Part shown: positions 16,459-51,476 of the stretch, in pieces
Position numbering within the stretch: position 1 is the stretch's first letter
Layout of the letters: each line of letters opens with the position of its first letter
IMG/VR virus record: IMGVR_UViG_3300022920_000008
Coordinates: 1-58,146 of that record
Strand: one strand, 5' to 3'
Length of the DNA: 58,146 nucleotides
From: a virus
Notes under the pieces: generated by a model
What the model saw: only the letters and a program-made list of their open reading frames with translations
Told to the model about the DNA's origin: nothing
The model's database searches: none
Position numbers and translations under genes: made by a program

Positions 16459-19400
16459 TCAACTTACTGGACCAAGTATTGGAAGATGTGGTACTGGATC
16501 TTTAATGCTTACCCATGGATACATATCTGTTGCTAAAATTGATGCGTCTGAAATGTCAATAATTTGTGTGCCAGCAGCGTGTTCAAGTGCAATTGATCCA
16601 CCATGTCCACGTTGTACATTTTGTAAAGTATTGCCTATAACGGCGGTGTACGATATAATTTCACCGTTTATAAATGCAATTCCGCCATCAGGTCTAGTAT
16701 TAAACATACTACTATCTGCGACAGTTATAATGTTATCTGCTTTACTTATACTATTACTTATAGTAGAAGTTTCACTAACTGTCAACTCAAAAACAGCAGC
16801 CGTATTATCTAATCCAGTAATATAAACATGCACTGTTGAATTACTGTCTACAACATCTCCTGATGTATTTGTATTGACTGTAATACTAACAGCTTCTCTA
16901 ATTAGAGCAGCAAAATTCATTCTACGTAAATTACTTGTCTCAATACTAAAGTTGCCTGGGTCTAGGAATTTTCCGCCATATGCAAGTCCCTCAGTATCAG
17001 TAAATGATCCACCAGTTACTATGTCAGCATTTGTATCTGTAAATGTTGAAGAGTATACATCTAGTGTATCAATTACGCCATCTGTCAGTTGCCAACCTGT
17101 CCAATTATCTGTAGGACTATCGTGGTATTTAACTGTAATAGATTTACTACTATTCTGTGAATCGTCCATACTTAGGTTAAATTTTTCACTAATACGACTT
17201 ATATCAACTTGTGATTTAATTTTTGTATGGAATGGTTTAATATCATTAATATACCCTTGTAATACATCAATGTTACCTTTATAGTATCTGCGTGGCAACT
17301 TGGTAGTATTATTTGAAGTTGCAATATTAGTATCTACATTTAACTTAATATAAGTTGTCTTATAGAACCAATCTACTTGGTTATGTATACTTGCAATGTA
17401 ATGTACCATACCAAAGAACATTTTGTTAAAGTTAACTAGGTATGATTCAATAAACAGATCTTCGCGACATGATTGTATAATCCAACTCATAAACTGACTT
17501 GGATCAAAGTCCCAAATGCCTTCCCAAGATTGCATGTCCCAGTTGAACAATGTATTAATGTTCCACACTAGGTCATTAAATTCGATAGTTGCAAATGTTT
17601 TTTCCATTAAAACCCATTCGCCTTCAATTAGATAATAAGTTTCATCACTAATACGTTTGCTTTGCGAATTAAATCCTGAATTTAAAAGTACAACTTCATG
17701 CTGTGTTTTATCAACTTGTTCTAATTCAGCTTTTGAAGCAACCGTAATACTAGGTCTTAAATCTTCTGTCTTCAATGGGTTAACGTATGATGTCCATTGC
17801 CATGTAAGGTTCATATCCCAACCAGCATCTTGGTACCATTCAGTGCCACTGTTTCTATATAATATTTCTGTTTCTGTATTATAATAACTATTGTATTGTA
17901 CTGGGAATTCAGTTCCAGAATACTCTGTAGGTGATGCTAGAGAGTCATCTGTTCTCCAAATTCTTCCGTCCCAAATATAAAGTACGTTTGTATCTGTATT
18001 TGTGAATGTATCACCTGGTTGATATATAATTGGGAATGTAGTATCAAGTTTTGCATTAGTTGGAATTGTGTAGAAAGTTTTAGTAATAATTCTATTCCAT
18101 TTATTTGCTAAATTGTCTACTAAGTTCTGATTTTTTAACAAGCTATTGATAATACTAATTGCTTCACGTCTAGCATCTTTTGTATCTTTAAACCATGCTT
18201 GGCTGTGCTTGCGTCCAGGATAGATATATTCAAAGCTTCTGTTATCGCCATAGCGATTGTATGGATGTAAGATTGGATCTGGAAGAATATTTCCAGTTTC
18301 TTTCTGTACACCAACCAAGTTATCGTTAAGTGCGGTGTAATAGTAGTCAGGAATTAAGTCGCTGCCCTCACTAATATTAGTCCATGAACTGTGTCCAATT
18401 CCCTGTGGCTTAATATTAAGTTGTGCAACAGTTGTACTATCTGTTATATATTGTTTAACACTATTCATAATTAGTTGCGTTGAACTTACTGCTGCCACCC
18501 AACTAATACCATTTGCACTTGGATCAGAAATAATTCTACTAATATCAAATGCAGATAATGTTCTGCCGTTGCTACTAATAGTTATTTTGTTTTTAACCCA
18601 GAAGTAATATACACTATCGTATCTATTAAAATTATCATTCCAGTATGTTTCTTCTGTATAATAATCCAAGAACACGGCACTAGCATTATCAAACACTCTG
18701 TATGCTTCGCCTGATGCTGGAGATCCAAATTGATCATTTCCAGCTTTAACTTCGTCAGCCCAGCTCTCTGGCGTTACTGATGACTTTATCCATTCATAAA
18801 CATCAATACTTGATCCAGGAATTTGTTTGCCCCACATCTTACTTGCATATGCTGCATCGCCTTGTTTGTAGTCATAATAGAAAACACTTGATGTATCCCA
18901 CCAACGCTTGCCTACATGCTCATCGCCCCAAGCACTTCTTTGATTTGTATCATATGCTGTGTCGCTACTCATGTTATACACGGCAACATCTGTTGGATAT
19001 CTAAAGTCAATTTCTTTTTCTGCAATGCCAGGAATAATACCTTGAATCGGATCGTATACTTCTAATTCTCTAATTGTTTTTTGTGTCTCGCCATTGTATA
19101 GTTTGACATTTTCAAAACCAGTGTTGTCTACTGATGTAGATATATTTCTAAGTAATGTTACTTCACCTGCATTGTATTCCCAAACAGCACTACCTTGATC
19201 ATAATTTGATGCCCACAAAATGTCGCCATCTTTAAAGTTATAGTTTACGGTGTCAGCAATTGCAATACGCATTGCAGCTTCATTAGCAAAACGTGCATTA
19301 CGAATAATAAATATTTCTTCAGCACGTCCGCTGTCTTCAATATATCTATCAATATAAAAAGCTGCTGGATCCTGTGTATCTAATGATGTAACTTCATGTA

Positions 19401-22400
19401 TGCCATCAGTCGTTGGCAATGTAGTTGAATTTAAAATCATAACAAAGTCGCCTGCACGAACATTATGCGGTGAACTCAATCCCTCAAAACTCTTTAGTGT
19501 AACTTTTGCATCGTTACCATCAGTACTTGTATCGCCTGCATCAATCTCTGCCCAACGTGTTGTGCGTTGTGTGTTTAAAACATTCCAGCTGTTAGCACGA
19601 GTAATTGTAGATCCATCTTTGATGTTAATATCGTTTAGTACCCATGTACTAACTAGTGCATCGTCTGTAGCACTTACGTTTGTCCAATCACTTAAATTAA
19701 ATTCAGCAGGTGGGAAATTTCCAACTCCCTGTATACCTGTTGATATACCAGCTTCTTGATTAAAATCATTGTCGCCTAAATCTAAAGTTGGTCCAACTGA
19801 TACTAATTTACTAATTACAATTCGGTTATTAATAATTTCTACAGTTACGCCTGTAATATTTCTTTCTGTAATTTGTGTTACTACTTCAGCTGCGGTAGAT
19901 GGTCTAGGATCAATATTAGTTGGCCCAATATTATAAACTCCAGCAATTCCAAATACATTAGAGTTATCTGTAATAGTCATTATACTACCTGCAGATAAAC
20001 CAGCTTCTACACTTAATTTTGCAATCTCTAGATTATTTCCTGATGTGGCACTAATAGCATATTCATCAATACCGTTTGTAGTTAAATAGTTGTCAATAAA
20101 GTTTACAATGTAACTAATATCCATTGGAGTTGGCGTTGCTTCTAAAACATATTGTGGACTATACGTACCTGGTACTATGTTTGTTATTGTAGTTCCGTCG
20201 CCATCAATAGTCATTGCTACTTCAATATCTTTTCTAATAATAATTTTATTAGTAAGAGTTATTTCCGTATCAACATTAGGCACTAAATTAATAGCCGCAG
20301 CTAATTGCTCAGTAGTTAATGTAACTTTAGTTAACACAGTTACTGGCAACATTTCAAATGTGATAGTTGCACTTTCTAAATTAGTCATTGGTCGTACAAT
20401 TGGTAATCCATTTTCATCGATGTCATCAATCTCAACAGTTAATAACTGTTCTGCATAACTTATAATTCCAATATCACTTGTAACTTGATCAACACCTGCT
20501 GGTACTGTAAATGAGAATACGGTAGTTGATCCATCTCCTGTAAATGTTTGTGTTTGATCTGGAACCTCTTGTAAATTAAATATCTCAGAACCATAATCTT
20601 CCAATAGTATATCTGTATTATCAATTGTTAATGTTAAGTTACGTACATCTGCGTTCTGATCATGTTGAACTAATTGTTCACTGTAAGGCAACCCGTTGTT
20701 ATATTTTGTAGTATCTAATACACTAGTAGGAACAATGTTACTGACTGTAATATTAATTCCGTCTATTCCAATAGTAAATTGGTTAGCTACTTGATTAATA
20801 ATAGTGTTGCCTGTTGCTGTAATGTTTGGGAAAGTTGTTGTAGTTCTATCCCACCAGAAACTATGTCCTTCAATGATTGCACTTGGTACTGGATCTGAAG
20901 CATTACGATAACTAAAGTCAGTATTACTAATATTCACAGTACCAGTTTCAGTAATAAGGTCATTGAACGGATTATAGGCTAACTTGTCAATGGCTAATTT
21001 AAATTTCGAACCATTGTATCTAACTTCTTCTCCATGGTTATATGATTTTGTATTACTCCAAGTTTCCACGGCGGCAAAATCAGTTGTGTAATTATTATAT
21101 ATTTGATCTATCTCTAATACATTTTGAATAATATAATCATGCTCAGTGTCTAATACATCTCCACCTTTTCTAATTTGTGTTACTAGTGGTCTAGTTTCAA
21201 CAGGGAATGAAAAGTCTGATTTTTTATTTACAAATACATTGCTTATGTCTGATAAGTTAATTAGTACGTTGTCATTTTCTAACATACTATCGTTGATAAT
21301 TAATTCGATAGCTTCGCTTCTAGTATTATCACCAAACTGCGATGATTTAAACATCCAATCTTCTGTTACATTAACTGTGCTTGTTCCTCTGTTAACTGTG
21401 TTGCCGCGATTAAATTTATCAACACTATTGTTTGTGCCTTTGTGACGCAAAACGCCTTGCATAAACTTATTGATAACATTGTCTGGCAGATCTAATTGTT
21501 TTATCCAATCCTGTGCATGTATACCTAATGTGATTCTTTCAGCACTATGGATATCTTTATTAAACTTAGTTACATTAAAATCATAAAGATCACTCATGCT
21601 ATCCGCAACTGTATCAAAGTTTTGTATGATTGTATTTTCGCCAATCAAATATCCTGGTGCTGACTTAGATCCATCAAATGCTGATGTACGTTGTCCTACA
21701 ATTTTAAATCTACGCTGGCGTAAACTTGTTATTGGATTAAAAATTGTCTCGTTAAATTGTGTCTTGTTATTAAATAATACACTATGATAATATCTTGTTA
21801 GTGCAAGATTTAAACTTACAACACGTCCTGAATTTACATTATTTGTTACAGTGTCTGCACTTTGTATTGAACCAATTTGTGTTTGGCTATTTGAAATTGT
21901 ACTTGAACTAATAACAGATACAATGCCTTCGCTTGGCTCTGCAGCTAATGGGTTAGTACCCTGTGGGTGTATTGTCAATTGATTAGCAATTCTAGTAATA
22001 CATAAATCACCAAAGTCGCCTTGTGTAATATTGCCATTTTCATCCATGATCATAATATCATTTGATCCACCTGGCAAACTATTGAAAGGCAAAACTGAAT
22101 GTGTTGTGCTTGTAAATGTAACTGTTGATGTTACTTTAGTTTCAAATGTCTGGTCTAAGTCTGAAACTACTGCCCATGCAGCAAATTCATTTGCACGCCC
22201 TAGTCCTGATACTTTAGTTGTATCTAGACCATACGATGTTAAGTATTCGTAGTAGCCTCTGATAAAATCATACACGCCTTGTATACGTGCTATTTTTGTT
22301 CCAAATTTCATTACACTTGCAGTTGTATTAAATGCATTATACTTTTTAATACTTACACCGTCTGCAATTTCAACTAAGTTAAAATCAAACTGTTGTGTCT

Positions 22401-25400
22401 CTAATGGTTCATAAAATAAGAATTCTTGCCTATGGTTACTATATCCATCTACAATATATCCACTGTCTGTTTTTTTAATTTTGATATCACTTACCAACAA
22501 TAATAGTTCAGGTAACCCGCCTGCCATTGTTATTTGATAATCTCTAACACCCAAAGTATATCTTCCGTTTGTTCCACTTTCAGATTTAATCTTAATTAAA
22601 TTCTTATCTGTAAATCCATTAAGTGGCTGTAGTAAGCGGGTGCTTAATGAATTAAACGTTGATCCAATAACTTCGCTATTTCTATTTCTTTGGTTAGAAT
22701 TATATAATACTTGGTCAATACCAAGGTTATACTTAAAGTTTTCTCTAAGTGTTACACTAAATCCTATTGATGGCCAAACTTTAAATCCTTCAGCACTTAC
22801 TGGAGGTGTATATGAATCAGGATAAACAAGTGTTACATTTGGTGTGCTTGTATAGCCACTGCCTGCTCGTATAACAGACAAGCTTAAAATATTACCATTG
22901 CTGTCTAAATTAATGTCAGCTAACGCCGTTACTTTTTCATCTGTTCCAATAATACTAACACGAGTACCTTCTGGAATTTGTCCAGTTTGGTGTGTTACTT
23001 TAATATTTTGTACTTGCTTGCCATATGTACTGCCGTGATATGTAAGTCTCTTGTTTGAGAATTGAGTTTTATCTAAGTTATTAATCATACTTAAATCAAC
23101 AGTTTGTGTATCATGGAAGTAACCAGGCTGGAATACTGCTGGCGCAGTTCTTGCTGGGTTAAGTTTTATTACTGCATCAATCGTTGCTGCTTGACCTAGT
23201 GGTGATTGTCTCCACTCGTACTCAGTTGGTCCCCAGTCACCAAATACAAATGGTTTATATTTTTCTAATGGCGTACCTAATACTGTGCTTATTTCTTCTA
23301 GAGTTCCATCTGCTTTAACTGGACATTTAGAAGCCCAATCCCAACTACTACGCATAAACATTAATCTTTGTTTAACAGGCGTACCTGGCTCACTAATAAT
23401 ACCGTACTCTAATGCATTTAGTAATGCTGCACGTTTTATACTATCAGTCCAACTGTAATGTGTATTCCACCAGGTTGGCTTAATAGCAAATCCTAACATA
23501 TTCCAAGGAGTAAGGTGCGGGATACATGTACCAAATAACATATGGTAAATACCTTTCCAATGCCCTGGTGCTTCTTGTTCTTCAAACTTTCCTGGTAAAA
23601 CTATGCCAGTGTAATTCCAAGTTTTATCATCGGTTGGATCGTAATAATTCTCTGATTGTAAATCTGTATTTCCAGTTTTTGTTTGCCAATCCATAAAGAA
23701 TCTTTCAACATATTCGTCCATAGTAGTATGTGTATACCATAATGAATGATTCATTGTTGGCATAAAATGCGTTGCGTCAGTTAAGTGATCTACTTTTTTA
23801 TTGATGCCGTTCCAAACTTTCTTTTCAATATCATACAGTACAGCAAGTACTGGATTATAGTTTGGACCAAAAATATCATCTGGGTCATTTGTAGATGCAT
23901 CACTAAAATCAATAGTATAACCATCGTGACAATATAGTACATTATCAATAATTTGTGGACGTACTAAATTTGCAAGACCTAATTTTGTAATACTTGCAGG
24001 AATATAACTATCTTCTAGGCTTCCATGATTATATACTTCCACTCGAACATTTGTATCACCACTTGTGAATGGAACAAAAGAAGCATTAACTGTCAGCATA
24101 CCATTTGATATTGTATACTCATCATCACGCTTTAGCAAACGCTGTATACCATTATTATTTCCAATTGCATTGTCTATAAGATAAACATTAATATGATCCA
24201 CGCTAAATGTATCTTCATCATAATTAAACTTAGTTATAAAACTTTGTCCAACTGTATCATATATAAAGTCTTGTTTAACTGTAGTATCTTTAAATAACAT
24301 ACTTGATTTTTTATGCAGTTGGCTACCAATTTGTCCACTAATTAAAACGTCCAACACATCATTAACTAGCGCACGGGTGCTAGTATAACTGTTTGTCTTG
24401 TATAGTTTTTTTGCATGCGATACTACTCTTTTGCGTAAACTCCACCATTCAGTTGCTTGGTTTTTTAGTGCTTCTGTTAAATCAATATTATAGTCTACAG
24501 TAGTGTAGTCTTGTATAATGCTTGCCCCGTCACTAATATAAATTTCGCCACCAATGTTATTAATTTTAGGAATGATATCGTAATTATTTTTACCAGTTGG
24601 AGATCCGTGGAACCCAGGTTGATTTGCAATTAAACTTTTCCAGTGTGCTGATGTTTCACTAATAGTAAACTCAATAATTCTTTCATTACTTGGATTGTGA
24701 TTTAAAATTCTTGGCTGTGTAGTTACACTATTGTTATCCACATACTGAACATCAATAATAAACTCATCGCCTTCTCCTAATTGATCTGCTTTAATTACAA
24801 TTTGATCATCTTGTCTTTCAACAATATCTACATTGGTGCTGTCAATTAAAACTTTATCAGCCAGGTCTAATTGTTGTCCATTTGAATAAACTTTTAAGTG
24901 TGTGCTATCAATAATATCTTTACTAGCACTGATAATTTTATTTTTTCTGGTGCCATCTGTATAGAACATTACATATCCAGTATCATCTGGCAATGTAACT
25001 TCCCAAACATTGGGGCGTGAAGGGTGAGGAGCAAATGTAGCTTGACTACCTGGATCGATAAAACTCAAACTTTGATCTGGACTACAATCTTTAAATTCAT
25101 GAGTAACGTTTTGTTCTAACATTAGGGTTGCAGTAACTTGTGTGTTATAAGTTTTATTGTTAATTACTTTTGTTACGGCTAGTTCATCTAAAGCTTTAAA
25201 GTAGTCATAATAAACATCAGGCTTCCAAGATGATTTTGGAAGAGGGACAACGATATCTTCTGTTCCATTTCCAACAACTTGTACTTTACTTGATGACTGT
25301 AATGGGAAGTCACTAGCTACATAGTTTGCAGCTATACGTTCACCTCGACCATAGTTTGCATAATAGTTTCCTAGTATTTTAGTTTCAGTATTATTTTGCT

Positions 25401-26928
25401 TTTCCAAGTATGTATAACGTTCTGTATCAATAACGTTTTCTAATACATGCTCGCTTTTAACACCTGATGTACTTATAACTGGAGCAAATCCTAATTCAGG
25501 ATCAACAGTGCCAGTTCCAATTTTATATCCAAATACACGGTTACCAGTAAATGTAGTATTGTTATACGTACTTAAAAGGGTGCCCATGTGGTCGCTAAGT
25601 TCAAACAATGGCATATCGCCCTGGCTTGTTTTTGTTTGTGCTAATACTAGAACATCATCCTGCCAATAGTAATCGTGGAATCTGTGTATAGCATCTACAT
25701 TATAGTAGTCTTCTCCCACTGTAAAGTAATGTCCGTTAGTTAATGTAGCGCCAGCAATTGGAATAATTTGGTTGCCACTAACTTCAAAAATCTTATTAAA
25801 TGATGATTGTGTGTCTGTGTTTTTTATAACTACAGTGTCGCCAGTAGACAGTCCATGTTGTCCTGCTAAGTAATATCCATCATTTGGTAGTTGCACACCA
25901 GTTTCAAGTAATTTACTACTGATTAAATAATCAACCACGCCGTGATTGATATCATAACCGTAGTTATAAAGTTGCAAGTTTCTATCAAATTGAATGATTG
26001 GACGTTTGGCTCTACGACCTTCATTGCCCCAATCAGATATATTAAAACTATCATCAGCGGTTTGCATTTCTTCTAATGCACTATGATGAATCCAACGATT
26101 GGCACGAGTCCAACTTGATTTATATTTGTCATCTAAACTACATACTGTATAATGTTTGTCTTCATAAGGAAGTGTTTTGCCACTTACTTTGCTAGCATGC
26201 GGAGATGCATAATACATTTCTTTAATTGGTATGAATTTAATTTTATTCCCAACGCCTGCTACAATATAACTAGTTGCTTGGATATTAGTATCGTAACCAG
26301 TTCCTTTAAATTCTAATCTCATGCCATTCCATAATTGCATTTGTTTTACAACAACTGTGTTGTTTATAACTACTTCATAAGGAATAGTGGCAGTAATACG
26401 GTTTGTTAAATCTGTTACAGGATTATAATTAGTATCAGTATTGTTTACTATCAACGCTGGTCCCATACCACTAGCCCAATAATAGTTGTTATAATTAACT
26501 AGTTTATCAATGTCAACTGGTGGATTAAAAACATATGTTCTTGTACTATATGCTGAGTTATAATCGTATTCGTTAAATTCAATATCTACTTTGTCTTTAA
26601 TTTGATTCCAACTAATGTGTTTGTTAACACTGCTATCGTCGTTTGATGAATATATAGTAGGCTGTAAATGTCTAAGGTTAACTGTATCTAAATATACATC
26701 ACTAATACTATTAACAGTATTGCCATCTTGGCTACCAACAAAGTGATCTACATCTTCAAGTTTGCCTTTGCTAATCATTAGATCCATGGTGCCATCTAAC
26801 CATTTGTCATTTAAGTCACTTCTAAATACTCCTGGTAGGAATGTACTAGACTTGATATTCTTAATAACTGATTGCCCTGGACTTGTCTTCATAAGGGGCG
26901 TGTTGATTTTATTAGGCTTAAAAGGCAT
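16459..26928 (-). CDS. giant baseplate/tail structural protein (gp7 position)
   Basis: An uninterrupted 3489-residue frame, more than three times the length of T4 gp7 (about 1030). It lies directly downstream of gp6, where gp7 and gp8 lie in T4. The N-terminus (SSTFLPGVFRSDLNDKWLDG) matches the opening of large structural proteins found after gp6 in aquatic T4-like phages. The body is rich in Asn, Thr, Asp and aromatic residues with many beta-type segments (for example YNNYYWASGMGPALIV). The C-terminus is GGIAFINGEIISY followed by DPVPHLPILGPVS. It may combine gp7, gp8 and fibre-attachment functions. No frameshift is seen. Confidence 0.7.
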   Translation of the reverse strand: MPFKPNKINTPLMKTSPGQSVIKNIKSSTFLPGVFRSDLNDKWLDGTMDLMISKGKLEDVDHFVGSQDGNTVNSISDVYLDTVNLRHLQPTIYSSNDDSSVNKHISWNQIKDKVDIEFNEYDYNSAYSTRTYVFNPPVDIDKLVNYNNYYWASGMGPALIVNNTDTNYNPVTDLTNRITATIPYEVVINNTVVVKQMQLWNGMRLEFKGTGYDTNIQATSYIVAGVGNKIKFIPIKEMYYASPHASKVSGKTLPYEDKHYTVCSLDDKYKSSWTRANRWIHHSALEEMQTADDSFNISDWGNEGRRAKRPIIQFDRNLQLYNYGYDINHGVVDYLISSKLLETGVQLPNDGYYLAGQHGLSTGDTVVIKNTDTQSSFNKIFEVSGNQIIPIAGATLTNGHYFTVGEDYYNVDAIHRFHDYYWQDDVLVLAQTKTSQGDMPLFELSDHMGTLLSTYNNTTFTGNRVFGYKIGTGTVDPELGFAPVISTSGVKSEHVLENVIDTERYTYLEKQNNTETKILGNYYANYGRGERIAANYVASDFPLQSSSKVQVVGNGTEDIVVPLPKSSWKPDVYYDYFKALDELAVTKVINNKTYNTQVTATLMLEQNVTHEFKDCSPDQSLSFIDPGSQATFAPHPSRPNVWEVTLPDDTGYVMFYTDGTRKNKIISASKDIIDSTHLKVYSNGQQLDLADKVLIDSTNVDIVERQDDQIVIKADQLGEGDEFIIDVQYVDNNSVTTQPRILNHNPSNERIIEFTISETSAHWKSLIANQPGFHGSPTGKNNYDIIPKINNIGGEIYISDGASIIQDYTTVDYNIDLTEALKNQATEWWSLRKRVVSHAKKLYKTNSYTSTRALVNDVLDVLISGQIGSQLHKKSSMLFKDTTVKQDFIYDTVGQSFITKFNYDEDTFSVDHINVYLIDNAIGNNNGIQRLLKRDDEYTISNGMLTVNASFVPFTSGDTNVRVEVYNHGSLEDSYIPASITKLGLANLVRPQIIDNVLYCHDGYTIDFSDASTNDPDDIFGPNYNPVLAVLYDIEKKVWNGINKKVDHLTDATHFMPTMNHSLWYTHTTMDEYVERFFMDWQTKTGNTDLQSENYYDPTDDKTWNYTGIVLPGKFEEQEAPGHWKGIYHMLFGTCIPHLTPWNMLGFAIKPTWWNTHYSWTDSIKRAALLNALEYGIISEPGTPVKQRLMFMRSSWDWASKCPVKADGTLEEISTVLGTPLEKYKPFVFGDWGPTEYEWRQSPLGQAATIDAVIKLNPARTAPAVFQPGYFHDTQTVDLSMINNLDKTQFSNKRLTYHGSTYGKQVQNIKVTHQTGQIPEGTRVSIIGTDEKVTALADINLDSNGNILSLSVIRAGSGYTSTPNVTLVYPDSYTPPVSAEGFKVWPSIGFSVTLRENFKYNLGIDQVLYNSNQRNRNSEVIGSTFNSLSTRLLQPLNGFTDKNLIKIKSESGTNGRYTLGVRDYQITMAGGLPELLLLVSDIKIKKTDSGYIVDGYSNHRQEFLFYEPLETQQFDFNLVEIADGVSIKKYNAFNTTASVMKFGTKIARIQGVYDFIRGYYEYLTSYGLDTTKVSGLGRANEFAAWAVVSDLDQTFETKVTSTVTFTSTTHSVLPFNSLPGGSNDIMIMDENGNITQGDFGDLCITRIANQLTIHPQGTNPLAAEPSEGIVSVISSSTISNSQTQIGSIQSADTVTNNVNSGRVVSLNLALTRYYHSVLFNNKTQFNETIFNPITSLRQRRFKIVGQRTSAFDGSKSAPGYLIGENTIIQNFDTVADSMSDLYDFNVTKFNKDIHSAERITLGIHAQDWIKQLDLPDNVINKFMQGVLRHKGTNNSVDKFNRGNTVNRGTSTVNVTEDWMFKSSQFGDNTRSEAIELIINDSMLENDNVLINLSDISNVFVNKKSDFSFPVETRPLVTQIRKGGDVLDTEHDYIIQNVLEIDQIYNNYTTDFAAVETWSNTKSYNHGEEVRYNGSKFKLAIDKLAYNPFNDLITETGTVNISNTDFSYRNASDPVPSAIIEGHSFWWDRTTTTFPNITATGNTIINQVANQFTIGIDGINITVSNIVPTSVLDTTKYNNGLPYSEQLVQHDQNADVRNLTLTIDNTDILLEDYGSEIFNLQEVPDQTQTFTGDGSTTVFSFTVPAGVDQVTSDIGIISYAEQLLTVEIDDIDENGLPIVRPMTNLESATITFEMLPVTVLTKVTLTTEQLAAAINLVPNVDTEITLTNKIIIRKDIEVAMTIDGDGTTITNIVPGTYSPQYVLEATPTPMDISYIVNFIDNYLTTNGIDEYAISATSGNNLEIAKLSVEAGLSAGSIMTITDNSNVFGIAGVYNIGPTNIDPRPSTAAEVVTQITERNITGVTVEIINNRIVISKLVSVGPTLDLGDNDFNQEAGISTGIQGVGNFPPAEFNLSDWTNVSATDDALVSTWVLNDINIKDGSTITRANSWNVLNTQRTTRWAEIDAGDTSTDGNDAKVTLKSFEGLSSPHNVRAGDFVMILNSTTLPTTDGIHEVTSLDTQDPAAFYIDRYIEDSGRAEEIFIIRNARFANEAAMRIAIADTVNYNFKDGDILWASNYDQGSAVWEYNAGEVTLLRNISTSVDNTGFENVKLYNGETQKTIRELEVYDPIQGIIPGIAEKEIDFRYPTDVAVYNMSSDTAYDTNQRSAWGDEHVGKRWWDTSSVFYYDYKQGDAAYASKMWGKQIPGSSIDVYEWIKSSVTPESWADEVKAGNDQFGSPASGEAYRVFDNASAVFLDYYTEETYWNDNFNRYDSVYYFWVKNKITISSNGRTLSAFDISRIISDPSANGISWVAAVSSTQLIMNSVKQYITDSTTVAQLNIKPQGIGHSSWTNISEGSDLIPDYYYTALNDNLVGVQKETGNILPDPILHPYNRYGDNRSFEYIYPGRKHSQAWFKDTKDARREAISIINSLLKNQNLVDNLANKWNRIITKTFYTIPTNAKLDTTFPIIYQPGDTFTNTDTNVLYIWDGRIWRTDDSLASPTEYSGTEFPVQYNSYYNTETEILYRNSGTEWYQDAGWDMNLTWQWTSYVNPLKTEDLRPSITVASKAELEQVDKTQHEVVLLNSGFNSQSKRISDETYYLIEGEWVLMEKTFATIEFNDLVWNINTLFNWDMQSWEGIWDFDPSQFMSWIIQSCREDLFIESYLVNFNKMFFGMVHYIASIHNQVDWFYKTTYIKLNVDTNIATSNNTTKLPRRYYKGNIDVLQGYINDIKPFHTKIKSQVDISRISEKFNLSMDDSQNSSKSITVKYHDSPTDNWTGWQLTDGVIDTLDVYSSTFTDTNADIVTGGSFTDTEGLAYGGKFLDPGNFSIETSNLRRMNFAALIREAVSITVNTNTSGDVVDSNSTVHVYITGLDNTAAVFELTVSETSTISNSISKADNIITVADSSMFNTRPDGGIAFINGEIISYTAVIGNTLQNVQRGHGGSIALEHAAGTQIIDISDASILATDMYPWVSIKDPVPHLPILGPVS

Positions 26929-41878: not shown

Positions 41879-42073
41879 TTATCTTCTTGACGCCGCCGCT
41901 GCTTTAGCATTTTGGTCTTCTCTTATTGCGTTCAGCCTTGATACAAAAAGTTCAATAGCTGGAACCGGCATACATAATACGTCTTGATAGTTTATTGCCC
42001 CTCCACTATTTAGAACAATATCTATATAGCTAGATTCAAGAGATTTTAATTGATTATTATATCTCTCAATCAC
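41879..42073 (-). CDS. short ORF, probable -1 frameshift extension of the gp26-like gene
   Basis: A 64-codon frame whose first possible start is GTG 42073, with no good ribosome site. The same frame stays open upstream into the 3' end of the gp26-like gene as far as the T TTT TTC slippery site (42121-42115). Reading through by a -1 shift would give a fusion of about 352 residues. The peptide is helical (YNNQLKSLESSYIDIVLNSG; PAIELFVSRLNAI), with an alanine- and arginine-rich end. It would be the counterpart of the T-domain of lambda G-T type tail chaperones. Independent translation is the alternative. Confidence 0.6.
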   Translation of the reverse strand: MIERYNNQLKSLESSYIDIVLNSGGAINYQDVLCMPVPAIELFVSRLNAIREDQNAKAAAASRR

Positions 42074-42089
42074 TGCTTCAAGCTGTTCG

Positions 42090-42121
42090 GGCTGACTAGT
42101 GGCAATCAGCCCGCGAAAAAA
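42090..42121 (-). promoter_or_regulatory. -1 programmed frameshift site: slippery heptamer plus hairpin
   Basis: In the gp26-like reading frame the codons are AAT TTT TTC, giving the X XXY YYZ heptamer T TTT TTC (42121-42115). After one base comes an 8-bp perfect stem, CGGGCTGA paired with TCAGCCCG, with a 10-base loop; it includes the zero-frame TGA stop. Confidence 0.65.
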
Positions 42122-42936
42122 TTTGCAACATCCAAATCAATTTTTGTCTTCCATTCATGCGAACAGTGCTGGCAGTTTGCTGTCAAATTAGTATCAATGC
42201 AATCATCGCTAACTGCATCAACAGTACTTCTCAACATATCATAATCATCTTTTGTAATGCTTTGTAACCATTCTTTGATTATAACCTGGTCTGTGATTTC
42301 TTCGCCTTCTGGTGGCCTAACTGCGTATATGCAATTTGAAATTAAATCAACTGTTAAATTGGCAAGCTCAATAAAAGTTTTACCAAATTGTTCACTACGT
42401 TGCTCTTCAGTTAAATCACTAGCAGTTAATGATTGAATCATTTTCTGTTGTTTAACTTGTTGAATTTGCAATAGCGTACGGTCTTTTAAACTGTAAGGCT
42501 TAACATGTATTGTGAAATTATTTTCAAGTACCAATTTATCACTAACTTGATTCTGTGATACTGTTGATAGCAAACGATTTGAATCAACAGCAAGCATATT
42601 AAGTTCTTGACAAGCTGGGCATTTGATATCAACACTAAGTTCACTACCATGTGTTGCTTGTCTGATACCAAGTAATACCACCAACAAATCATTAACTGGC
42701 ATTTGCTCTGGGTCAATTACATCAGGACAACAACTACGCAACACAGCAAAGGTAGCTTCGCCGTTGAATAACGCATCTGGTGTTTTATAAAGCAATTCGT
42801 CTCTGGCAGTCATGGCATATACTGCCAATTCACCATCAACACTTAGTTTTGGTTTGTCTGTATAATATTTGCCGCCGCTGGGTAAGCTGACGTATAATGC
42901 TGGCTTTCTATAAGCCGCTACTAATGGGTTTGTCAT
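42106..42936 (-). CDS. baseplate hub assembly protein gp26-like (tail assembly chaperone candidate)
   Basis: A 276-residue protein of the T4 gp26-like baseplate family. The N-terminus PALYVSLPSGGKYYTDKPKL (20 residues) and the block LLYKTPDALFNGEATFAVLRSCC are typical. It has a zinc-ribbon pair CPAC (C106, C109) and CQHC near residues 258-261. In T4, gp26 helps build the hub around the tape measure. Here it is divergent from the tape-measure-like genes, with about 77 bases between the starts. Its 3' end holds the frameshift signal described separately. Confidence 0.75.
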   Translation of the reverse strand: MTNPLVAAYRKPALYVSLPSGGKYYTDKPKLSVDGELAVYAMTARDELLYKTPDALFNGEATFAVLRSCCPDVIDPEQMPVNDLLVVLLGIRQATHGSELSVDIKCPACQELNMLAVDSNRLLSTVSQNQVSDKLVLENNFTIHVKPYSLKDRTLLQIQQVKQQKMIQSLTASDLTEEQRSEQFGKTFIELANLTVDLISNCIYAVRPPEGEEITDQVIIKEWLQSITKDDYDMLRSTVDAVSDDCIDTNLTANCQHCSHEWKTKIDLDVANFFAG

Positions 42937-43013: not shown

Positions 43014-45899
43014 GTGAATTTTGAGAAAGAATTTCAAAAAATAAATGCAAAATACCCTTGGCTAAAAGAAGCTACTTTATATAATGCAGTAGAAGTAATC
43101 GGTAATGATATAAAAGCTGATACCAAACTACAAGAACAATTTAATAAAAACAAGCCAGATCCACAAAAATTTGATAATGTAACCAAGTCTTTAATGAAAG
43201 ATCTAGTATCAAAAGGTAATCAGCAGGCCAAACGACTAAAATCTGCAACACGAGCAGCCTTAATGATAGGAAGAAGTTCTTCTCCAATATCAAGTACTGC
43301 TACACTAGTCCAAAGTGCTGGGTTAGCAGCTAACAGATTAGGTAACGGTGTTGCAAATTCATCAAGAACTGGTTTGTTAGGTGACGTTGGCGGTGGATCA
43401 ATAGCAGCATTTGGTATAGGTGCCGCAGCATATTCCGGCGCCATGATTATGTATGGCAAGCTAATGGAAGAACAAGAAAAAGCATCACGTGCAATGATCA
43501 ATCAAGGTTTGCTTGTTACTGACGTTGACCTGTTTACCCGTATGAAAAATACGTTTGCAGAAGCAGGTATGTCTTTAAATGAGGGAATGGAATCATTAGG
43601 TGATTTAATACCAACATTTGCTAACTTGGGAGATAGCTCAGCAAAAGTAATTACTGATTTTATTCAAGGTCTTGACACTGCATTAGATTCTGATGTAATT
43701 CATAAATTTGGACAACGAAGAAACGTAGTAGTTAGACAAGTATCTGAAACATTAACTTCACTTCGTAACATTAATAGTATAGATGATTTAAACCAAATGT
43801 CAATGAACAAAGTTTTAGATCGTTACGAATCAAATGCTAGAATTATATTTGGTGTCAGTCAACTAATGGGCGTTACTGCTGATTCAGAAAGATCTAGCCG
43901 AATGGAAGCCAGCAACAATATTAATTTTATTGTAGCAATGAGAAATAGTCAAGCAGCCATTATTGATAGATTGGGAGAAATTGGGTATGACAATTTACAG
44001 CAAGCACAATCTAGTTTTGTATCTGGACTAAATTATTTAGGTAACGAGTTTAGCACACTAGCAAGTAATGCACTCAATAGAGCAGTTTATGATTATGATA
44101 CAGACACAAACTTCCGTAACAATATTGATACTGAATTAAATGAAGTACTAAATCTATTAGGTCCATCAGCTAGACAAAGTTTCATAGATTTAGGACAGCA
44201 GCTTCTAGATGGTGAGCTATTTGGAATTGAGCTAGAAATTGCAAAGCGTGACTTCTTTAATACTGTTCGTAACTCATCTGACAGTCCAATTGCAAATGCA
44301 CAATTTCAAATTCCAGATGGGGAAATAGATATAGCCAGAGAAGTGTATAATAGAAGCTTTTTAATTGGTGATGAATTTATGAATGCTACTGACTTAGAAT
44401 TGGTTGAGTTAGCTGCTGCCGGCGCTGCCCTTACTGATAATGCTGACGATGCATTAGTAGTTGTTGACACTTTGGCAATTGCATTACGTAAAGTGTATAA
44501 TTTAATGACTCCTGGCTTTGCTACAACTGGGCAAGCTATGAGTTATTTCAATGATAATTTACAAAGATTAGTAGGCGGTACTGATAGTCTTTTAACTGCA
44601 TTAGAAACAACGTTCAGTGTAGAAAGAGAAGGTCCTCCATCTGTAGGCAGTCGTGGAAGAAATCAAAGAAGGGGCGATCGTGCTGGTACAACATCTACAG
44701 GCGATTCGACATCACCAGGCTCTCCAACACCATCTGTAGGCAGTCGTGGAAGAAATCAAAGAAGGGGCGATCGTGCTGGTACAACATCTACAGGCGATTC
44801 GACATCACCAAGGTCGCCAGGCAACAGCAACTCTACAATCGTTGGCGGCGTAACATTATATCAAGGTGGAGAGTACGGCGTTAATACTACTGAGGGTAGG
44901 TCGGTGTTATTAGATATGTCAGGCGGTGGTGCAAGTAATATGGTTCGAGATGGTGCTCAGGAAAATTTAGATAGATTGCTCAGTGGACCTTATGCAAGGA
45001 TGCAGGAATATTATGGCGGTCCATTAAGCATTAATGATGCCATTGCAAAACACGGAACCTCCCGTGAAGACACCACACCAAACAGTCAACACTTTTTTGG
45101 AAATGCTCTTGACATAGGCACACATAACATGAGCAATGAAGACAAAGCTAGGATAGTACACGCAGCATTGAGAGCAGGGTTTACAGGATTTGGATTTGGC
45201 GCTGGTATTTTGCACGTTGACGTAGGAAGAGCAAGAAGTTGGAGTTATAATAATTCTCATTATGGTGGGTTGCCAGTTAGCGATTGGCAATCGTTTGTTG
45301 CTGGCAATGCAGTTGCAGCTATACAAGAAGTTGAATTGCAAGGATTGCAAAGTGAGTTTGCATCAGAATCTCAAGATCAACCAACAGATGAAACTTCAGA
45401 TGTAATTCCAGATAATCCAGACTCAGTTGAACCAGGTTCTCCTACACAAGTTATAATACCGGAAGGTAATGGCCCGCCATTATCTGAATCACAAGACTCA
45501 GAAGAGCTTAGTACACTTGATACGTCAGATATTAATTTACGACAAATAGCAAGCGCAAGAGATGATCTTTATGCCGAATATTGGAATCCAGATACCTCTA
45601 CATCAAGAATACTAGAAATAGAACGCAGTTTAGGACGTATTGAATCTGAATACGGAGATCATATTAGTGGCATGGGCTTTGACATAACACCAGGAACTGG
45701 ACAGCAAAGTTATCACCTGTTAGACGAACGTTTACAGGAACGTTATGAAGAATCATTAAACAATAATGATACTGAAACTATTAGTATAATAAATTCACGC
45801 ATACAGGATGAAATTGATAGAGCTAATATTACTCGTACTGCATGGCAATCAATATTTGATGCTGGTGCTAATAGTCGAAGAATAAGCGAGACAGTATAA
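43014..45899 (+). CDS. tape-measure-like tail protein with M15 peptidase domain
   Basis: A 961-residue protein from GTG 43014 with AAAAGGGG upstream. The N-terminal part (YPWLKEATLYNAV), the hydrophobic glycine/alanine stretch near 140 and EQEKASRAMINQGLL are shared with the next two genes. A basic repeated linker at about residues 540-600 leads into a peptidase M15 (D-Ala-D-Ala carboxypeptidase-like) domain: zinc motif S691-Q-H693-FFGNA-L-D700 and H734-x-D736. It probably lies inside the tail tube and opens host peptidoglycan during injection. The C-terminal 200 residues are acidic and helical. The stop overlaps the next ATG region (TAATG). Confidence 0.75.
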   Translation: MNFEKEFQKINAKYPWLKEATLYNAVEVIGNDIKADTKLQEQFNKNKPDPQKFDNVTKSLMKDLVSKGNQQAKRLKSATRAALMIGRSSSPISSTATLVQSAGLAANRLGNGVANSSRTGLLGDVGGGSIAAFGIGAAAYSGAMIMYGKLMEEQEKASRAMINQGLLVTDVDLFTRMKNTFAEAGMSLNEGMESLGDLIPTFANLGDSSAKVITDFIQGLDTALDSDVIHKFGQRRNVVVRQVSETLTSLRNINSIDDLNQMSMNKVLDRYESNARIIFGVSQLMGVTADSERSSRMEASNNINFIVAMRNSQAAIIDRLGEIGYDNLQQAQSSFVSGLNYLGNEFSTLASNALNRAVYDYDTDTNFRNNIDTELNEVLNLLGPSARQSFIDLGQQLLDGELFGIELEIAKRDFFNTVRNSSDSPIANAQFQIPDGEIDIAREVYNRSFLIGDEFMNATDLELVELAAAGAALTDNADDALVVVDTLAIALRKVYNLMTPGFATTGQAMSYFNDNLQRLVGGTDSLLTALETTFSVEREGPPSVGSRGRNQRRGDRAGTTSTGDSTSPGSPTPSVGSRGRNQRRGDRAGTTSTGDSTSPRSPGNSNSTIVGGVTLYQGGEYGVNTTEGRSVLLDMSGGGASNMVRDGAQENLDRLLSGPYARMQEYYGGPLSINDAIAKHGTSREDTTPNSQHFFGNALDIGTHNMSNEDKARIVHAALRAGFTGFGFGAGILHVDVGRARSWSYNNSHYGGLPVSDWQSFVAGNAVAAIQEVELQGLQSEFASESQDQPTDETSDVIPDNPDSVEPGSPTQVIIPEGNGPPLSESQDSEELSTLDTSDINLRQIASARDDLYAEYWNPDTSTSRILEIERSLGRIESEYGDHISGMGFDITPGTGQQSYHLLDERLQERYEESLNNNDTETISIINSRIQDEIDRANITRTAWQSIFDAGANSRRISETV
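44637..44810 (+). repeat. tandem repeat: two identical 81-base copies, 93-base period
   Basis: Bases 44637-44717 and 44730-44810 are identical and start with CCATCTGTAGGC. They encode the basic linker PSVGSRGRNQRRGDRAG and TTSTGDSTSP twice, in frame. Perfect identity suggests recent duplication. Confidence 0.9.
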
Positions 45900-48793
45900 T
45901 GATGGACATTGAAAATTGGATTAACCAGATAGTTCAAACTTACCCGTGGGCTAGTGAAGACACTATGTTGGTAGCATTTGGAGAACAAACTAGATCAAAT
46001 TTAACAGCTAGACAGGCAGTTGCTAAACTTAGGAATGATCCTGCCAGTTGGCAAAGCATTGTTGATGAGATTAAAAAGAATACTGACAGATCTTCTACAT
46101 TTAATAGGTACACAAAAGAGTTATCTCAATCAAGCAGTGCAATAATTAAATCGATGGCCAGGGATGATAGTATAAATGCTATTAACGAATTAGCATATAA
46201 TTTTTCTAAAGGTTTAGATGGAATTGCCAATGCCGCAGACGAGTTAACTGATAGTGCCAGATGGCTATCAATGGCGTCAACAGGAAGATTTGGAAACCTA
46301 GTAAGAGCAGTTGAAACTGGAGTTGATTTTTTAAATGTTGGAGCCAATACTGTTATTGGTACAGTTGCTATTGGTGGTATTGCATTAAAGTTTATACAAG
46401 ATCAAGAAAAAGCATTACGTACAATGATTGACTTTGGTATATTATCTAATGACTTATCAGTGTTTAATGAAATTAGAGATAATGCTGCTTCATTAGGAAT
46501 GACTCAACAAGACTTTATTAAAGAGTTTAGTGATTTTGGACCAATATTTACAAACATGACTACCAATGCTGCTGATGGATATCAGCAATTTACAGACATG
46601 ACAGCCGCAATAAAGCAAACTGACACATTTAGTACATATGGTATAATGCTACGTGATTATGCCAAACAGATTGCAGAAAATACCAAGCTTGCATATAATT
46701 TAAGTCAGATGACCGAGTTTAACGAAAACACAAAAGCACAGTTAGCTGAAACATTTAAAACTAATAGTACATTTGCATTATCAATGGCAAACGCAACAGG
46801 AGAAAAAAGAGATGATCTTTTATCTGCCCGTAAAGATGCACTTAGTGGAATTGAGTTAATAGCCGCAATGGATCAAAACTTTGCATATATTACTGAGCAG
46901 TTTGGAGAAAACGGTGCAAGAAATATAACAGAAAATATTGGCTTTTTGAGAATGTTAATGGCACCATTGCCAGATGATTTTGCTGACGAAAGTATAGACA
47001 TTATTACTCGTTCACTTTACGATGTGCAATTTGATGGTGGCAACATACTTAATAATATAAGTGACGATATGTTAAAAATGTTAACAGCATTAGGCCCTGA
47101 TGTCAAGAACCAATATCTTGAAATGATGCAAACGATAGTGCAAGGTGGATATGATGCATCTGATCCTGGTCAAATAACAAATGACTATTTGGACTTGATG
47201 CAATCTATCAAAGCTACTGACCCAGTAACAGTTACATATTTAGAGGTAAAACCTGAACAAGTAAATGCTAGAATGATACAAGACATTGTAAGAATATTAC
47301 CAGAATCAGCTTTTAGTAGAAACTTAACACTCGTTAATTTAAATGAAGCTACAACTGATACTGCTGCAACTTTAGCAGGACAAGCTGTGGCTGCAATTAG
47401 TAGCATTGGTGTTTTTACTGCTACAATTAAAAATGGTATACTTCCTGAATATGATACTACTGCAAATGCTATTAATAATTTTGGCACTGGTCTTGCATTT
47501 TTAGAGAATGCCATGGACGTAATAGACATGTCAGGAAGAAGAGATGAAGTAATTGATTTAGATAGTGGCGCAGAAAACCGTGCGGCTATGATGGAACAAC
47601 GTGAAAGCATGTTACGTGATTTAGAGTCAGTTAGGACTGTTGAAGAATTCAATGCTGTTTTAGATTCACATAATTTACCAGGATTATCAGGCGGCTCAAT
47701 TAATATGCCAGCTAGTGATATCAGCCATTTATTTGGTAGGGGTGAGACAACTGATAGCTCTGGACGTCCATCAGCAAGTTCAGAAGTAGTGGCGGCAAGG
47801 TTGATTGCAGCATTAGATGACTTTGGAATTACTAACCCGCAAGCCCAAGCTAACGTACTTGGTATGGTAAGTGGAGAAAGTGGATTTAGATTATTAGAAG
47901 AAACTAGTTACAGAAATACAGATGTATCAAGAATTAGAGAAGTTATGGCATCAAGAGCACAGTTTTATACTGACGCAGAAATAGAACAACTTAAAACAGA
48001 TGATCGTGCATTCTTTGATGCAATGTATGGTACTGAACAGAGTAATAGACGACAACAGGCAAGAGATGCTGGATTATCCAGGGCAGATACTGGCGGCAGT
48101 ATTAGTCCTCAATTTATCAGAGGAGGCGATATGGGAGGTTATGATTATCGCGGACGTGGGTACATTCAATTAACTGGTAGAGAAAATTATAGAAGAGTTG
48201 GTGAAATGGTAGGAGTTGATCTTGTTGAAAACCCAGACTTGGTAGTTGATCCATATTGGGCACCTAGAGTTGCAGCCGCATTCTATGCAATTAAAAGTCA
48301 AAGTGAACGATCAAAAATGACGGATGCTCGAGAAGTATATAGAATGACATGGGGGGCATATCCTGATACTGCTACAAAAATAGCTGATGCGCAAAATAGA
48401 GCTGGTATTGGTGCAGCGTTTTTACTAAGAATTCAATCAGGCGAAATGGCAAATATCGATACTTCGTTATCTCAAGCAGAACAAGATTATGTCAATCAAA
48501 CAAGAGGCGACGGAGAACTACAACAACAACATGCAGAGTTAACTGATCAATTTATGCTAGAGGGTCTTGGTACAGGCCGCCAAGCTGGAGATATTCCAGT
48601 ACTTGAAGAACTCACAAATCCAACTAGCATAAATACAGATACTAATGACTCTGAATCAACTATTCCTGATGTGTCATCTCTTTGGACTACTCCAGTGCTT
48701 AACGATGAAGAAACTCAACAGGCAATACGAGAGATACAAGAATACTTAGCAACAGCGCAGAACAGACAGGTAACAACAGGAAATGTCAGATAA
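45899..48793 (+). CDS. tape-measure-like tail protein with GH19 lysozyme/chitinase-like domain
   Basis: A 964-residue paralogue of the preceding protein. It starts with NWINQIVQTYPWASEDTML and has a hydrophobic segment followed by DQEKALRTMIDFGIL. From about residue 630 it carries a GH19-type glycosidase domain: the putative catalytic glutamate E660 in VSGESGF, and DYRGRGYIQLTGRENYRR near 748-765, with the GYIQLTGR signature. GH19 domains in phages cut the glycan chains of peptidoglycan. The C-terminal tail is Asp/Thr/Ser-rich. Its stop overlaps the following gene by 11 bases. Confidence 0.78.
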   Translation: MMDIENWINQIVQTYPWASEDTMLVAFGEQTRSNLTARQAVAKLRNDPASWQSIVDEIKKNTDRSSTFNRYTKELSQSSSAIIKSMARDDSINAINELAYNFSKGLDGIANAADELTDSARWLSMASTGRFGNLVRAVETGVDFLNVGANTVIGTVAIGGIALKFIQDQEKALRTMIDFGILSNDLSVFNEIRDNAASLGMTQQDFIKEFSDFGPIFTNMTTNAADGYQQFTDMTAAIKQTDTFSTYGIMLRDYAKQIAENTKLAYNLSQMTEFNENTKAQLAETFKTNSTFALSMANATGEKRDDLLSARKDALSGIELIAAMDQNFAYITEQFGENGARNITENIGFLRMLMAPLPDDFADESIDIITRSLYDVQFDGGNILNNISDDMLKMLTALGPDVKNQYLEMMQTIVQGGYDASDPGQITNDYLDLMQSIKATDPVTVTYLEVKPEQVNARMIQDIVRILPESAFSRNLTLVNLNEATTDTAATLAGQAVAAISSIGVFTATIKNGILPEYDTTANAINNFGTGLAFLENAMDVIDMSGRRDEVIDLDSGAENRAAMMEQRESMLRDLESVRTVEEFNAVLDSHNLPGLSGGSINMPASDISHLFGRGETTDSSGRPSASSEVVAARLIAALDDFGITNPQAQANVLGMVSGESGFRLLEETSYRNTDVSRIREVMASRAQFYTDAEIEQLKTDDRAFFDAMYGTEQSNRRQQARDAGLSRADTGGSISPQFIRGGDMGGYDYRGRGYIQLTGRENYRRVGEMVGVDLVENPDLVVDPYWAPRVAAAFYAIKSQSERSKMTDAREVYRMTWGAYPDTATKIADAQNRAGIGAAFLLRIQSGEMANIDTSLSQAEQDYVNQTRGDGELQQQHAELTDQFMLEGLGTGRQAGDIPVLEELTNPTSINTDTNDSESTIPDVSSLWTTPVLNDEETQQAIREIQEYLATAQNRQVTTGNVR

Positions 48794-51476
48794 AGTATAT
48801 AATTTAACGCTACCAGATGGCACTACAATACCAGTACCTGCTTGGGCTCGTGAAGCTACCTTATCTGTTTTAGTTGAGCAATTAAAAATTGGAAGTTCAC
48901 TAAACAAGTCTTTAATAAAAGAAGTAACTGATTTAAATTTAGATACTGATGAAATTGAAGACAGTATTCAAGATATGTTTAATAGTCTTGAAACTGTAAA
49001 ATTACAAGAGAGTGAAGACGAGAAAAAAGCCAGAGCTGGCTTTGCCAAAGGAATTGCAAAAGCTACTAATGATGTTGTTGACTCTTTAAGTGACACAAGT
49101 CAACCATTAACTACTATGACTAAAAATGCAGAGTTAGCTGCAGGATGGTTAGGCAAAGGCGGCGGGCAATGGCTGAGAAATTCTACAGCATTAGCAGAAA
49201 CATTTGAGGGCGCTGGAGACTTTATAGCAGGCGCCGCAGATGGATTAGGTGATGCATTTTTTGCATATGCTGGTTTTGTAGCAGGACAATTAGAGTCATT
49301 TGCAAAAGCACAAACAAATATGATTAATGCAGGTGCTATATTCTTTGACGCAAGTGTTTCATTTGATGATCTAAGAGAATCTGCCGCGGCGTCGGGCATT
49401 ACTTATAATCAGTTAAGTGAAATTGCAATGCAATATGGTACAGGATTGCAAGTTTTAGGTCGAGGTGTTTCGGGCGGTGTTACAGAATTTTTAAATACAT
49501 TCAAAGATCTACAAGAAACTTCAGAAGCATTTGGCGACTTTGGTATGTCAAACGAACAACTTGCCGCAGGGTTTGCTGAGTTTATCGAAGTGTCACGTTT
49601 AACTGGTTTAGTTAATAACAAGACTCAAGACGCATCTGGTGTCCTAGAACAAGGATACACAAACTTATTGCAAGAAACTACTGCATTAGCTGCATTAACA
49701 GGTAAAAGCAGAGACCAACTATTAGCTGAACAAAATGAAGCATTGAAGAATCCAACAACTGCCGCAGCATTAATTAGAATGGAAGAACGTGGGTTTGGTG
49801 ATGAAGCTGAAGTAATCACTAGTATTGTTAGACAGTTAGCAAACACTGCTGAATACTTACCAGCTGGTGTTTCAGACATGATACAATTAGCAATTGGTAC
49901 TGCATATGGCGAACTTGAAGCAGGTGAAAATATCAGTAATGTTGATTTACGAGCGGCACTACGTGCCGCTGATCCAAGTGGTAGTGTGTCTACAATACTA
50001 AACAGTTCTGGTATTGATATTATGGAAAAGATACAAACTGCGGTAGCAAATGGTTCAACACCAGATGATATAAGATCATTTATATATGAAGAAATCGCAG
50101 CTATAGATGAAGGCATTGATGCAGACATTCGAATGAATACAGGCACCTTGAGTGACTATGCAGCAATGGTACTGGAGTTTAGAACCAAAAGTATATTGGC
50201 AGACAAAGATTTTGCTACATTGTTACGTGGTACTGAGGAAGAGCGTAACGCAGTTTATGCTGATATGCAACGACAGTTGGCAACATCAGGAACGGCAACA
50301 CTTGCATTGAATGATTTAACTAAACTATTTTTACAAGCACAATCCAAACTAACTCCAGATTTAGATAAATCTGCAGCATATGCAAGATCAATTGCTGGTG
50401 GTATGGAACATATTGCTAACTTATTAAACGGCCAAACAGGCGCAGATAATGATAGTGGTATTGGCGGTGGTCTTAATCCACTTGTAAATGCTCAAATAAC
50501 AACTGAACAACGAGATCAACAATTAAATGACGGACTTGAAAATGGAACTATACCTGAAAACTATGAAGATCCTATAGGCGATGCTCCAGTTTTAGAATTC
50601 GACCAGGCAATCATGGACGAATTTTTAGGTATGATGACACAATCAGGTGGAACTCCTGATAGCTTTACTGATATCATTCACGGTGAAGTAATGCGAATGC
50701 CACATCCTGTAAACCGTGGGGTAACTGCGTTTATGAAAATGAGAGAATTTGGTGGTACAGTTACACCAGCAGCTAACAATCACGGGTATGTTGTTGGTGA
50801 AGCAGGACCAGAATATTTTGAACCAACCGGCGATGGAAAAATTATACCGTTTAGCGAAATGACATCAATAATTGAAACAAGTGCCCGTGCTATCGATGCG
50901 TTTACGTCAGCAGTTGGAAAAATCGACTTATCATCAATATCTGATTTTACACAAACTACATTACAATCATTAGCAGGAAAAATGGTTGAAAATATAATGA
51001 CTGAAGTTGACACTGTAGATACAGCATCTTTGGGTGCATTTGGTGGACAAGGTTCGATGGTGATCGATGGTATTGGCATTAACGAACTATTAGGTGATCT
51101 AAACATACCTAACAGTGCATTAGATTTACAAGCACAATTTGAATCTGGCGTTGGATTAGATGTATTTGGTGGAAGTGATACGCCTGTAACACCTGCAACT
51201 GTAACAAAAACTGAAAATAGCCAACCAATTAATGAGCTAAATACAAGCACGGTAGGTACAGTATCTAATACTTCAAATAATCAAATTGTACAAAATGTAC
51301 CTCCAGCCCCAAATCAAACAAACAATAATTCAAATTCTCCAGATTTTGAAGAATTTAAAACAAAAATGCAAGAATTGGCAAGCGTAAAAGAAACATATAG
51401 TAGTGTAATTATGGCTTTACGTGACGAAGTTAGAAAATATCAAAGAATTAATGATACTGGGAGAACTTTCGGTTGA
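48783..51476 (+). CDS. tape-measure-like tail protein
   Basis: An 897-residue protein, third in the tandem set. It has WAREATLSVLVEQL at the N-terminus, FAYAGFVAGQLESFAKAQTNMINAGA (hydrophobic segment and A-x-x-x-M-I-x-x-G block shared with the other two), and repeated helical stretches. Near the C-terminus NHGYVVGEAGPEYFEPTGDGKI (core VGEAGPEYFEP) is a signature common in tail tape-measure proteins. No hydrolase domain is seen. It is the best candidate for the gp29-like tape measure, although gp29 is shorter (about 590). Confidence 0.68.
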   Translation: MSDKVYNLTLPDGTTIPVPAWAREATLSVLVEQLKIGSSLNKSLIKEVTDLNLDTDEIEDSIQDMFNSLETVKLQESEDEKKARAGFAKGIAKATNDVVDSLSDTSQPLTTMTKNAELAAGWLGKGGGQWLRNSTALAETFEGAGDFIAGAADGLGDAFFAYAGFVAGQLESFAKAQTNMINAGAIFFDASVSFDDLRESAAASGITYNQLSEIAMQYGTGLQVLGRGVSGGVTEFLNTFKDLQETSEAFGDFGMSNEQLAAGFAEFIEVSRLTGLVNNKTQDASGVLEQGYTNLLQETTALAALTGKSRDQLLAEQNEALKNPTTAAALIRMEERGFGDEAEVITSIVRQLANTAEYLPAGVSDMIQLAIGTAYGELEAGENISNVDLRAALRAADPSGSVSTILNSSGIDIMEKIQTAVANGSTPDDIRSFIYEEIAAIDEGIDADIRMNTGTLSDYAAMVLEFRTKSILADKDFATLLRGTEEERNAVYADMQRQLATSGTATLALNDLTKLFLQAQSKLTPDLDKSAAYARSIAGGMEHIANLLNGQTGADNDSGIGGGLNPLVNAQITTEQRDQQLNDGLENGTIPENYEDPIGDAPVLEFDQAIMDEFLGMMTQSGGTPDSFTDIIHGEVMRMPHPVNRGVTAFMKMREFGGTVTPAANNHGYVVGEAGPEYFEPTGDGKIIPFSEMTSIIETSARAIDAFTSAVGKIDLSSISDFTQTTLQSLAGKMVENIMTEVDTVDTASLGAFGGQGSMVIDGIGINELLGDLNIPNSALDLQAQFESGVGLDVFGGSDTPVTPATVTKTENSQPINELNTSTVGTVSNTSNNQIVQNVPPAPNQTNNNSNSPDFEEFKTKMQELASVKETYSSVIMALRDEVRKYQRINDTGRTFG

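Follow-up and report, generated by a model that had tools for sequence, protein, structure and literature searches.

The gp26-like gene at 42106-42936 (minus strand) of an uncultured jumbo-type phage very probably makes a tail assembly chaperone in a short and a long form by -1 frameshifting, as read from its sequence. The gene lies in IMG/VR record IMGVR_UViG_3300022920_000008, of which a stretch of 58,146 nt, referred to here as the window, was analyzed. In the proposed mechanism, the majority of ribosomes would halt at a TGA codon and yield a 276-residue product (TAC-N). A minority would slip by -1 with tRNAPhe on TTT and TTC, both of which would re-pair with TTT, and in the clade of the window this slippage would be aided by a hairpin located just downstream. 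Slipped ribosomes would then produce a 352-residue protein, TAC-NC, whose C-terminal extension is predicted to be helical. If the two forms work as lambda G and G-T do, the tape measure protein would be coated by TAC-N, and tail tube subunits would be brought in by the extension of TAC-NC. We infer the slippage itself, its rate, and the chaperone role, the latter by analogy. An earlier sequence-only reading of this DNA had drawn the parallel to the G/G-T tail assembly chaperones, and it is supported by the conserved heptamer, the -1 open reading frame (ORF), and the clade-wise stems described below.

The slippery site and the -1 frame of the window

TAC-N was assigned to the gp26-like family (PF12322/phrog_150) by profile matches, scoring 55.9 bits against PF12322 (curated cut-off 24.5) and E=3e-18 against phrog_150. 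The window record, a 58-kb fragment, contains one copy of a PF12322 gene. A second paralogue may lie elsewhere in the genome of this phage; complete relatives carry one only. The last codons of the gene are AAT TTT TTC GCG GGC TGA. The slippery heptamer T_TTT_TTC (42121-42115, minus strand), read directly from these letters and kept in frame among relatives, is in the correct phase, five codons before the stop. One base past the heptamer, CGGGCTGA (42113-42106) pairs with TCAGCCCG (42095-42088) in a perfect 8-bp stem. The resulting hairpin (42088-42113, minus strand) contains the zero-frame TGA (42108-42106) in its 5' arm and has a folding z of -2.8 against shuffles.

The -1 frame is open from the heptamer to a TAA codon at 41881-41879. 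It encodes an extension (TAC-C; 41879-42115, minus strand) of 78 codons plus the stop, and the predicted TAC-NC fusion would count 274 + 78 = 352 residues. If the overlapping A_AAT_TTT were the shift site, the tail would be one residue longer; the tallies among relatives are based on T_TTT_TTC. The sequence-only reading had located the heptamer correctly to the base, its stem of 8 bp across the stop is present, and its estimate of about 352 residues from a frame open to 41879 proved exact. The gp26-like gene is the sole ORF of the window with an in-frame slippery heptamer in its last 15 codons and a -1 extension of at least 60 codons; the scan covered the 54 ATG-initiated ORFs that reach 100 aa, which total 19,311 codons and include many shadow ORFs. 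The ORF scan also recorded a single ATG ORF of ~3,489 codons at 16459-26928 on the minus strand.

Conservation among relatives

Relatives were drawn from a phage collection and from IMG/VR. TTTTTTC was found in frame in all 85 related jumbo-type IMG/VR loci and in 79 of 80 cyanophage-type loci, at a distance of 0 to 18 nt from the stop codon. These loci are partly non-independent, with 59 jumbo-type sequences (window included) left at <90% identity by a crude ungapped measure. The heptamer was also present in 18 of the 21 named phages examined (16 TTTTTTC, 2 TTTTTTT); carriers include Atu_ph07, Phosso, PA5oct, 121Q, RaK2, CBB, GAP32, Munch, BF, SCTP-2, and P-SSM7. The codon on its 5' side is AAT, CAT, AGT, CGT, GAT, GCT, GGT, ACT, or TCT. 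Its third base is always T although the encoded residue varies (N, H, S, R, D, A, G, or T), a constancy of the DNA that the protein does not share. Moreover, in 164 related genes Phe-Phe at the junction is written TTT-TTC in every case, compared with 0/6 jumbo-type and 2/85 cyanophage-type cases away from the junction.

Contig-end truncations aside, the -1 ORF stays open in every one of these loci and varies little in length, with a -1 tail of 59-81 residues in the viral loci. Over seven pairs, pN/pS was 0.33 in the -1 frame versus 1.09 and 1.46 in the other two frames; by these ratios, the -1 ORF is under purifying selection. AlphaFold2 modeled the extension as helices with a mean pLDDT of 88.5. 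Searching phages by tblastn with the -1 ORF alone returned chance matches only, and hmmscan of the window's -1 tail matched no family. A sequencing error or pseudogene was also considered, and was rejected on the conservation of the heptamer and -1 ORF together with the pN/pS values. The co-conservation check that the sequence-only reading had proposed thus gave heptamer and -1 ORF together almost without exception. For the stem the outcome was mixed, as it is kept and covaries in the window clade and a sister clade but is missing from RaK2-like phages and P-SSM7.

In 30 window-clade sequences a conserved 6-bp core, GG[C/T]TGA with TCA[A/G]CC, begins 3 nt past the heptamer; the two outer pairs that cut the spacer to 1 nt are found in some relatives only. 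The third core pair is C-G in 18 of these sequences, U-A in 9, and U-G in 3. The structure scores above slid controls, and its 13 double-change cells were reached by 8/500 shuffles. The sister clade (34 sequences) has a different stem of 9 bp with an 18-nt loop, also 3 nt past the heptamer, whose 26 double-change cells (7.1 expected on shuffling) were reached by 0/500. Strong folding was found in Atu_ph07 and PA5oct too (z about -3), while no hairpin was found in RaK2-like phages or P-SSM7 (z 0.1 for P-SSM7). The textbook spacer between heptamer and hairpin is 5-9 nt. At 1-3 nt the spacers here fall below this range, as had been noted for the window, although the conserved stem starts 3 nt out and the 1-nt distance applies to the window and some relatives only. 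Two clades with different covarying hairpins at one slippery site form a natural series for short-spacer -1 stimulation. From the alignments, the heptamer is universal in these phage groups and the putative stimulator is clade-specific.

The distant members LR756508, Streptococcus phage GXN1, and Streptomyces phage BRock are without a T6 heptamer. In these, a tail-like ORF just past the PF12322 gene is open in the +1 (equivalently -2) frame, which hints at a shift in another direction. In GXN1 the stop is preceded by CCCC. In another record, IMGVR_UViG_3300049043_000112 (~1834-2064), a cyanophage-type gp26-like gene lacks the heptamer and continues into its tail in a single frame. This is the single PF12322 gene on a 236-kb record, and it represents either a real fusion or an assembly error.

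Relation to T4 gp26 and gp51 and to known chaperones

Xu et al. reportedly described a conserved frameshift of long-tailed phages in 2004. Tail assembly chaperones of these phages are made in short and long forms via frameshifting, and the G-T shift is described as widely conserved "except T4" (PMC5009743). In profile comparisons, the jumbo and cyanophage fusion profiles matched each other (probability 98.2, E 4e-14), with an alignment that crosses the junction and runs to the tail's end. Against T4 gp26, the alignment of the cyanophage fusion profile reaches the very end of gp26, at the FF junction, and goes no further, whereas against T4 gp51 it passes the junction and enters the tail. Thus gp26 would be the counterpart of the product made without a shift, and gp51 that of the shifted product. 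The direct match of the jumbo profile to T4 gp51 is weak (probability 7%); the tail homology between the jumbo phages and gp51 is transitive, via the cyanophages. Residues 147-246 of T4 gp51 and the -1 tail of P-SSM7 are both matched by phrog_634 (gp51, "hub assembly catalyst"). Of the records searched, T4 alone has two PF12322 genes (26 and 51); the others have one, except SCTP-2 with none over threshold.

By these profile alignments, T4 gp26 and gp51 are the equivalents of the short and long products: the body is homologous, gp26 ends at the shift junction, and the tail of gp51 is homologous to the -1 extension. In T4, by contrast, the two genes are divergent and gene 26 does not end in a slippery site; the window phage has one gene with a predicted -1 frameshift. 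In P-SSM7 and other cyanophages, gene 26 is followed by a short "gene 51" ORF, with T_TTT_TTC in the same place as in the window and a -1 ORF of ~60 codons. Unlike the window, P-SSM7 has no detected hairpin, and a large endolysin/tape-measure-like gene comes next on the same strand. A -1 shift at T_TTT_TTC may have been ancestral for the two chaperones of the T4 gp26 superfamily, from cyanophages to jumbo phages. T4 would then be derived, its products split into genes 26 and 51 by duplication; hairpins would have been gained or replaced by lineage; and GXN1, BRock, and LR756508 would have changed to a +1 or -2 shift. We rate this scenario at about even odds. The T4 exception becomes testable in that one frameshifting gene should stand in for genes 26 and 51.

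Several precedents narrow what is new here. A passage on PRFect cites Vladimirov et al. (2022; Virology 566:9) to the effect that some T4-like phages encode the short and the long chaperone in separate genes, and a passage of the paper on phage Adele cites the same work for poly-T slippery sites in T4-like TAC-N genes (PMC12846349). The chaperone gene of Adele itself has a -1 shift at poly-T with the -1 frame open for >200 bp (PMC12846349). Vandenendeviridae and Andersonviridae, as described, resemble what is predicted for the window in shifting by -1 at a poly-T site near the TAC-N end; the slippery motif of Adele is given as GTTTTT. The statement of the sequence-only reading that no such signal was known for gp26 in T4 stands for the end of T4 gene 26 itself, but not for T4-like phages as these passages represent Vladimirov et al. 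(2022). On the same passages, a frameshifted chaperone with a poly-T site is an already known kind in T4-like phages. New are the covarying hairpins and the documented occurrence of this kind in jumbo phages; a limited literature search found no report of the frameshift in RaK2-like or other jumbo phages, though reports may exist. As with lambda G/G-T, a single gene of the window would give a short and a long form through a shift close to its 3' end, and it lies beside tape-measure-like genes. Gene order and strand differ, and the likeness is one of analogy.

Proposed chaperone role and alternative explanations

The gp26-like gene adjoins three tandem genes for large tape-measure-like proteins (961, 964, and 897 aa; 43014-51476, plus strand), but is divergent from them instead of upstream on the same strand. 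The three proteins are paralogous (E=4e-36, 2e-11, 2e-12), and their role is presumed from synteny and paralogy. They occupy the place of a single structural protein in PA5oct and CBB and of RaK2 ORF088, which is annotated as tape-measure-like. This synteny is in line with the description of the divergent neighbors as tape-measure-like in the sequence-only reading. An M15 peptidase-like domain is found in the first of the proteins and a GH19-like domain in the second. The classical chaperone position was seen only in BRock, a distant relative, whose homologue is flanked by a tail protein, encoded downstream of the sheath, and by a large endolysin/tape-measure-like gene. The best chaperone match to the model in the PDB was HK97 gp13 (2OB9; Z 6.0, rmsd 5.0, 101 residues of a 107-residue chain), no higher than unrelated helical matches. 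Foldseek against the PDB gave no significant match, and the TAC-N profile, searched against the sequences of solved structures, gave nothing meaningful. A BFVD structure search returned T4-like baseplate hub proteins, confirming the family but not the function.

It was also considered that the heptamer is incidental and the short ORF a separate gene, which ribosomes would enter at a start of its own or by reinitiating past the gp26 stop. In 121Q and Phosso a gene was indeed annotated, with an overlapping start (TAATG / ATGA), and CBB and GAP32 have an ATG preceded by AGAAG, so that stop-proximal starts could be used in these four phages. However, a start codon with a Shine-Dalgarno-like 4-mer is absent from the first 30 codons of the -1 ORF in all 86 window-type loci (window included). 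Within this stretch, the window offers as its sole candidate the GTG that the sequence-only reading had pointed out; this GTG has no ribosome site and is missing from the closest relative. Moreover, the heptamer and its phase are retained even where an ATG exists, and the fused form occurs in T4 gp51 and in the one-frame IMG/VR locus, making a separate gene quite improbable. Still less credible is that RNA polymerase slippage on the A3T6/T6 run, and not the ribosome, joins the frames. Every case does contain a homopolymer run, but a stretch of six T is short for polymerase slippage in bacteria, the phase of the run relative to the codons is fixed, and the downstream hairpins covary as RNA in two clades.

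The remaining alternative concerns function rather than mechanism: the gp26-like protein could be a structural component of the baseplate hub, with the frameshift serving a structural hub variant. phrog_150 and many records carry the name "baseplate hub", and older T4 genetics counted gp26 in the hub (PMC3004832). T4 gp51, though, is needed for assembly but is not part of the particle (PMC3004832). In CBB virion mass spectrometry the neighbor CBB_251 is listed with 29 peptides and the gp26-like CBB_250 is unlisted, and in PA5oct the neighbor is tagged ESI-MS/MS and the gp26-like protein is untagged, non-detection being weak evidence in both cases. Together with the tape-measure-like neighbor and the gene order of BRock, this renders a structural hub role unlikely, and the tail assembly chaperone is preferred. 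The gp26-like identity proposed by the sequence-only reading stands with the PF12322/phrog_150 family, and the name "baseplate hub" is better read as tail assembly chaperone. This corrects a common annotation of jumbo phages, which labels the gene "baseplate hub subunit" and leaves the -1 ORF unannotated or as a "hypothetical protein".
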